Part shown: in pieces, positions 411-1,650 of the stretch | How the letters are laid out: each line of letters starts with the position of its first letter | How positions within the stretch are numbered: position 1 is the stretch's first letter | Translations under genes and position numbers: made by a program | From: Desulfarculus sp. | Lineage (GTDB): Bacteria; Desulfobacterota; Desulfarculia; Desulfarculales; Desulfarculaceae | NCBI GenBank assembly: GCA_016218705.1 | Contig: JACRDC010000119.1 | Span: forward strand, 1 to 64,000 | Reading direction: 5' to 3' | DNA length: 64,000 nucleotides | Notes under the pieces: generated by a model | Seen by the model: only the letters and a program-made list of their open reading frames with translations | Database searches by the model: none | What the model was told of the DNA's origin: nothing

Positions 411-1139
411 CTATCTGCGGTCGCCGAAGAGGCGCAGGAGCATCAGGAAGAGGTTGATGAAGTCCAGGTAGAGCTGCAAGGCCCCGAAGATGGCCATCTT
501 GGAGACCGTGACCTCGTTGGCCGCCTCCAGGACCATGACCCGTAGGCGCTGGGTGTCGTAGGCGGTCAGCCCCACGAAGACGCCCACGCCGATGATGCTG
601 ATGATGTAGTCCATCATGGGCGAGCGGAAGAACATGTTGACCAGCGAGGCGATGACGATGCCGATCAGGCCCATGAACAAGAAGGAGCCCCAGGCCGTGA
701 GGTCCTTCTTGGTGGTGGAGGCCCACACGCTGGTGATGGCGAAGGTGCCGGCGGTGACCAGGAAGGCCTTCATCACCGAGGCGCCGGTATAGGCCAAGAG
801 CACCATGCTGAGCGTCACGCCGTTCAAGGCGGCGTAGACCACGAACATGGCCGCGGCGGTGCCCACCTGCATGCGCCGGATGCCGGCCGAGATGGCAATG
901 ACCAGGCCGAACTCGCCGATGATGGCCGCCCAGAACCACATGGTGGGCGCGCCCGTGCGCAGGTTGAAGAAGACGCCCAGGGCCGCCGGGCTGGTGGCCA
1001 CGTACCAGGCCAGGAGGGCCGACAAGGCCAGGCCACCGGCCATCCAGTTGTAGACCTTGCGCATGAAGGCGTTGACCAGGGTCAGTTCGCCCACGCCGCC
1101 CAAGGTCTGGGGGTAGGGCTGTTGGGAATAGGGGTTCAT
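411..1139 (-). CDS. BAX inhibitor-1/YccA family membrane protein
   Basis: 242-residue integral membrane protein with about seven hydrophobic segments starting near residue 31 (NWMAGGLALSALLAWYVA). The pattern LVNAFMRKVYNWMAGGLALS near the N-terminus and the closing LQLYLDFINLFLMLLRLFG are characteristic of the bacterial BI-1 family (YbhL/YccA group), proposed calcium-leak or protease-modulating inner-membrane proteins; the physiological role in bacteria is not settled. ATG at 1139 follows AAAGGAG. A single-gene unit with its own -10 box upstream and a palindrome downstream. Family assignment is firm; function is not. Confidence 0.93.
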   Translation of the reverse strand: MNPYSQQPYPQTLGGVGELTLVNAFMRKVYNWMAGGLALSALLAWYVATSPAALGVFFNLRTGAPTMWFWAAIIGEFGLVIAISAGIRRMQVGTAAAMFVVYAALNGVTLSMVLLAYTGASVMKAFLVTAGTFAITSVWASTTKKDLTAWGSFLFMGLIGIVIASLVNMFFRSPMMDYIISIIGVGVFVGLTAYDTQRLRVMVLEAANEVTVSKMAIFGALQLYLDFINLFLMLLRLFGDRR

Positions 1140-1251: not shown

Positions 1252-1557
1252 CTAGAGCGCGCAGGACTGGGGGGCCCCCACCCCTTCCACCACCAGGCGG
1301 CGGAAGCGCCAGAAACCGGCCAGGCGGATGACCAGGGCCGGGCCGACGACCATCAGGCCCGGCGGCAGGAAAACCTCCAGGCCGTCCAGGCGGTGGCGTT
1401 GATAGGCCCTGGCCGCGCCCTCCGGGGGAGCACCCGGCGCCACCCGCGCCGGCAGTCCGCCCCTTCAGCCCACCCCCGGCTGGGGGGCGCTCACCGTCAC
1501 TTGGCCGCCCTGCTCTTTGATGTAGGCGCTGGCCTGGGGGTCAATCTGTATGCGCAT
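1252..1557 (-). CDS. small selenoprotein, CC/Se-motif-like family (in-frame TGA read as Sec)
   Basis: Read through one in-frame TGA (1467-1465) the gene gives 101 residues from ATG 1557 (preceded by AAGGAG, spacing 8) to TAG. The part before TGA (MRIQIDPQASAYIKEQGGQV) and the part after (GGLPARVAPGAPPEGAARAY, then DGLEVFLPPG and a hydrophobic stretch) make one coherent small domain: a short beta-alpha start, a G-Sec-R-G-G loop, a G-x-P-P segment and a DG-x-x-V strand. From memory this layout matches the small CC/Se motif (seleno)proteins of anaerobes, where the redox position is Cys-Cys or Sec. A SECIS-like hairpin follows the TGA. Function is unknown; a redox or metal-binding role is inferred from Sec only. 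Without recoding one would call either a 30-residue peptide or a 63-residue ORF starting at an unsupported GTG at 1443. Confidence 0.8.
1425..1464 (-). promoter_or_regulatory. SECIS-like hairpin after Sec codon 31
   Basis: Immediately 3' of the TGA, a 7-bp stem CCGGCGC/GCGCCGG closes a 5-base loop GGGUG. The loop G residues fall 20-22 bases after the TGA, close to the position of the loop GG in the E. coli fdhF SECIS (19-20). An outer GGGG/CCCC pairing and a 5'-side UG bulge below the stem complete a bacterial-type SECIS shape. Deduced by hand, not folded by software. Confidence 0.6.
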
Positions 1558-1650
1558 GCCTGGGGCTCCTTCTTTGTGGTCGCTATAAAGATGATGTCCC
1601 CGCGCCCAATGTCAAGGGGGCGGACCCTTTGGGCCGGGGGGGCCTGGGGC

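Follow-up and report, generated by a model that had tools for sequence, protein, structure and literature searches.

The locus

The window, i.e. the whole stretch of 64,000 nucleotides of Desulfarculus sp. DNA analysed here, contains a short gene with a single in-frame TGA codon, which is flanked by a chromate transporter gene and by a gene of the Bax1-I/YccA family. The features relevant to this work are the following:

411..1139, minus strand: gene for a Bax1-I/YccA-family membrane protein (Pfam PF01027), the conserved downstream neighbour
1252..1557, minus strand: predicted selenoprotein gene, a member of the NF041239 family; 101 codons from ATG to TAG, with TGA at codon 31
1261..1263, minus strand: codon of Cys99, a C-terminal Cys invariant in the clade and candidate partner of U31
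1434..1452, minus strand: bacterial SECIS-like hairpin CCGGCGC-GGGUG-GCGCCGG, with covariation
1465..1467, minus strand: in-frame TGA, probably read as selenocysteine (U31); the identical codon occurs in 18/18 aligned genes, and Cys homologues have a C of their CC motif opposite it
1566..1571, minus strand: Shine-Dalgarno sequence AAGGAG, recognised from the sequence

As an earlier note on this DNA had pointed out, one frame runs from ATG 1557 to TAG 1252 with TGA 1467-1465 as its sole interruption, and a good ribosome site precedes the ATG (spacing of 8 nt). Fourteen frames in the window have this general shape (ATG start and a single TGA, with 25 or more codons before it and 60 or more after it), and a Shine-Dalgarno-like site was found ahead of only one of them, the putative selenoprotein gene. 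The opinion that the part downstream of the TGA has no plausible start of its own turned out to be nearly right: an in-frame GTG does exist at 1443 (63 aa), but it is not a conserved start, because many homologues have GTT, GTC or TTC in its place. TGA otherwise serves as an ordinary stop in this genome and terminates, for instance, the neighbouring chromate transporter gene.

The Bax1-I gene is found downstream of the selenoprotein gene in 8 loci from four genera (g1, g2, g5 and g6), while in genus g4 the neighbours are instead an MFS transporter and a multicopper oxidase. Since the neighbours differ between genera, no single pathway follows from the context. In the window, the selenoprotein gene and the Bax1-I/YccA gene are separated by a terminator-like site on the same strand.

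Family assignment

The search of NCBIfam with the read-through protein identified family NF041239, 'CC/Se motif family (seleno)protein' (score 64.4 bits, cut-off 40), with residues 1-93 of the protein matched to the entire profile (positions 1-91 of 91); this is the family that the earlier note had proposed. The same note had called the protein an 'unannotatable' small selenoprotein, of which the identification as a selenoprotein stands, but not the adjective, as NCBI already uses the NF041239 model and Table 1 of a review (PMC13188914) includes the family, with its motif given as CxxU. The gene adds a genuine but ordinary member to a family for which a model exists.

Compared with the Moorella-type members of NF041239, which it matches over the full length and with the Sec at the motif, the window protein differs in having Arg after the Sec (other members of its clade have G, A, S, K or C), in carrying the C-terminal Cys99, and in lacking the CxxU motif of the review. 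With no Cys at position -3 or -1, the second Cys/Sec (CC, UC or CxxU) is absent from the vicinity of the Sec; since the UC form occurs in another genome of the same bacterial family (G009), the window protein is a variant inside the NF041239 family. Both the family title and the review mention the second Cys/Sec, which is however not part of what the NF041239 cut-off requires, and membership rests on the score of the curated model.

Predicted fold and similarity to HesB/IscA proteins

The Pfam search detected no domain in the protein, PF01521 included, the NCBIfam search yielded neither a HesB match nor a TIGR01911 match, and no relatives were found by the PDB sequence search or among phage records. 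Because Pfam finds no domain and the PDB sequence search no relative, the fold assignment rests on a structural model and a profile comparison. The AlphaFold2 model, calculated from three sequences (the window protein and two relatives), has a pLDDT of 79 (best model) and a pTM of 0.69. Its nine best PDB matches in Foldseek are all of the HesB/IscA kind (SufA, IscA, HI1723, AQ_1857 and one YneR model), with probabilities of 0.72-1.00, followed by a drop to 0.08 or less; the E-values of the HesB/IscA-kind matches range from 0.005 to 0.08, i.e. none reaches 0.001. In the alignment of the family profile to the HesB-like proteins of the same bacteria (hhalign: 94%, E 1.2e-7), U31 falls opposite their Sec/Cys. 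On the basis of this three-sequence model and weak profile match, the fold of the 101-residue product is most likely that of HesB/IscA proteins (A-type iron-sulfur carriers), and the prediction supports the location of U31 in the loop that holds the first metal-ligand Cys of IscA and HesB-like proteins, which is Cys35 in IscA.

The predicted fold and the Sec at the equivalent position would be shared with the HesB-like (IscA-HesB) selenoproteins (TIGR01911, NF038090), whose U-S-G-P and C-terminal CG..CSC motifs, as well as their PF01521 and NCBIfam HesB signatures, are however missing from the window protein. The A-type carriers IscA, SufA and ErpA are likewise similar to it in the predicted fold, but the identity in the structural matches is only 8-18% and the C-terminal CGC motif of IscA is missing, so that of the three Cys ligands only U31 and C99 are present. 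Cys99 is invariant in the Desulfarculaceae clade and missing at that place in distant homologues; in the clade of the window gene the adjacent Cys is mostly lacking, but the C-terminal Cys is present. Cys99 may stand in for the second Cys of the CC motif; the U31-C99 pair itself, like a metal or redox function of the protein, is inferred.

Could the protein be a selenoprotein that works as a metal-free thiol/selenol redox protein, with a function unrelated to the A-type carriers? The adjacent CC, UC or UU kept in some family members elsewhere would be compatible with redox sites, and the invariant ligand set does not extend beyond U31 and C99, whereas the fold and the profile match point to HesB/IscA, although function is not fixed by fold; we regard this possibility as a serious one, if somewhat short of an even chance. 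A more specific and decidedly tentative idea, which we consider rather unlikely as a whole, is that the CC/Se family is the sister branch to the A-type Fe-S carriers, with Sec in place of the first metal ligand, and that in Desulfarculaceae the ligand set was rebuilt as U31 plus the C-terminal Cys; the product would then carry a metal or cluster through selenolate ligation and perhaps be linked to a Bax1-I/YccA membrane protein.

Decoding of the UGA codon

The reading of the UGA as selenocysteine, common to the carrier and redox possibilities, is consistent with the gene content of the genome (4.2 Mb, 99% complete). The earlier note had suggested looking for selA, selB, selC and selD and had regarded the absence of selB or selC as fatal to its reading; all four were found, namely a tRNA-Sec with the anticodon UCA, SelB (368 bits), SelA (610 bits) and SelD (364 bits), the last with a TGA of its own inside the gene. 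Four formate-dehydrogenase-type (FdhA-type) genes with one TGA each and a gene for a HesB-like protein with a TGA in the same genome also point to Sec decoding.

A stem-loop with G residues in the loop 20-22 bases after the TGA had likewise been noticed, and indeed a 7-bp hairpin with a GGGUG loop beginning 20 nt past the UGA is found there. It fits the bSECIS model quoted in PMC13188914, i.e. a stem-loop just downstream of the UGA, at a distance of 16-37 nt, whose loop has G in its first positions. The Rfam scan of the window detected no RNA, and minimum-energy folding of the single sequence by itself gives no support for a SECIS element (z about -1 to -1.4 in this GC-rich sequence). The hairpin of the window gene is equalled by 4.7% of synonymous shuffles; for most members fewer than 10% of synonymous-codon shuffles match, the exceptions being L023, L032, L036 and the distant L043 and L046. 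Among the aligned relatives, the stem columns (16-22/28-34, counted from the UGA) form standard pairs in 88.7% of the cells, five of the seven stem pairs have changes on both sides, and the covariation score was reached by 0/500 shuffles, a count that can be inflated by the relatedness of the sequences; slid versions, which keep this relatedness, score about half or less. The evidence for the putative SECIS element is therefore covariation across relatives, and not the stability of a single hairpin.

One more tRNA deserves mention: a tRNA-Cys with the anticodon GCA (C1:54779-54871; positions 1501-1597 of locus L002) scores above the tRNA-Sec threshold (56.7 bits); its gene is flanked by an MvhD-like gene on one side and a large HdrA-like gene on the other. 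This tRNA has the look of the selC*-type tRNA-Cys treated in PMC7609411, a class resembling tRNA-Sec in which some members carry the opal (UCA) anticodon. A tRNA of this class could in principle cause the UGA to be read as Cys; however, with GCA instead of UCA the extra tRNA-Cys was rejected as a UGA decoder, and given the full Sec pathway in the genome and the covarying hairpin after the UGA, we consider decoding as Cys very improbable.

Selenocysteine at this codon is also in agreement with its conservation. NF041239 genes were found in 17 of the 60 genomes searched (that of the window gene included), all within one family, Desulfarculaceae, and 17 further aligned genes of the NF041239 family, one of them a paralogue in the same genome, have TGA at the same column. 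Across the 18 aligned genes the TGA and one TGG (Trp) are the only identical codons; the invariant residues are G17, P25 and G30 before U31, and P44, G59, G81, W83, G92 and C99 after it. With pN/pS downstream of the TGA at 0.6-1.0 in most comparisons, the purifying signal shows up not as a low ratio but as residues conserved between genera. Cys homologues aligned at residue 31, for which the earlier note had proposed to search, do exist (L034, L044 and a protein from Halomonas sp. PA16-9, all with CC at the Sec site); among distant homologues, L043 has UC, L046 has UU, and L045 has neither. No homologue with a true stop at this position, the other observation named there as refuting, was encountered: apart from the distant L045, TGA or Cys is found. 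The Sec/Cys exchange at this site is what is expected for a selenoprotein. That the TGA is instead a true stop, a pseudogene mutation or an assembly error, followed by a frame open by chance in GC-rich DNA, might seem natural from the use of TGA as a stop in the chromate transporter gene and from the 14 one-TGA frames of similar size in the window, but is largely refuted by the conservation of the same TGA column in 17 more genes, of residues past it up to Cys99, and by the Cys homologues without a stop, and we give it hardly any credence.

Proposed function

Taken together, these data make it highly probable that the gene encodes a functional NF041239 selenoprotein in which the UGA is decoded as Sec, most likely of the HesB/IscA fold, with a proposed metal/Fe-S or redox role for U31 and Cys99. 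According to this model, SelA and SelD would make Sec-tRNA-Sec(UCA), SelB would carry it, and the hairpin just past the UGA would recruit SelB, leading to the insertion of selenocysteine at codon 31. With Cys99 at the C-terminus as the partner of U31, the product would bind or transfer a metal or an Fe-S cluster, or work as a selenol/thiol redox pair.

Annotation without the handling of selenoproteins truncates or misses such genes, hence confirmation of one is useful for curation. For a family known only under a hypothetical label, the predicted fold suggests a role open to experiment, namely Sec as a possible metal/Fe-S ligand at the first ligand position of IscA, and a natural comparison is offered by this clade, where a C-terminal Cys has taken the place of the adjacent one. 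The family itself has already been described; the link to the SufA/IscA fold together with the position of U31, and the changed Cys pattern of the clade, are modest additions made here.

Other members of the family

Distant members of NF041239 exhibit further variation. L046 (G352 C44:19336-19623) has two consecutive TGA codons in frame (UU) at the position of the motif, and the member from Halomonas sp. PA16-9 (L076, 2501-2761; 78.4 bits), with CC at the Sec site, lies in a stretch without listed genes. The TGA-less members L034, L044 and L045 (with L062-L064), which come from other genomes, adjoin a gene for a CstA-type carbon-starvation/pyruvate transporter in 3/3 cases. The paralogue in the genome of the window gene (L036/L060, C56:29988-30266), a second TGA-containing NF041239 gene with 44% identity, is located near two genes for ArsA/GET3-family ATPases and a CstA-like gene.
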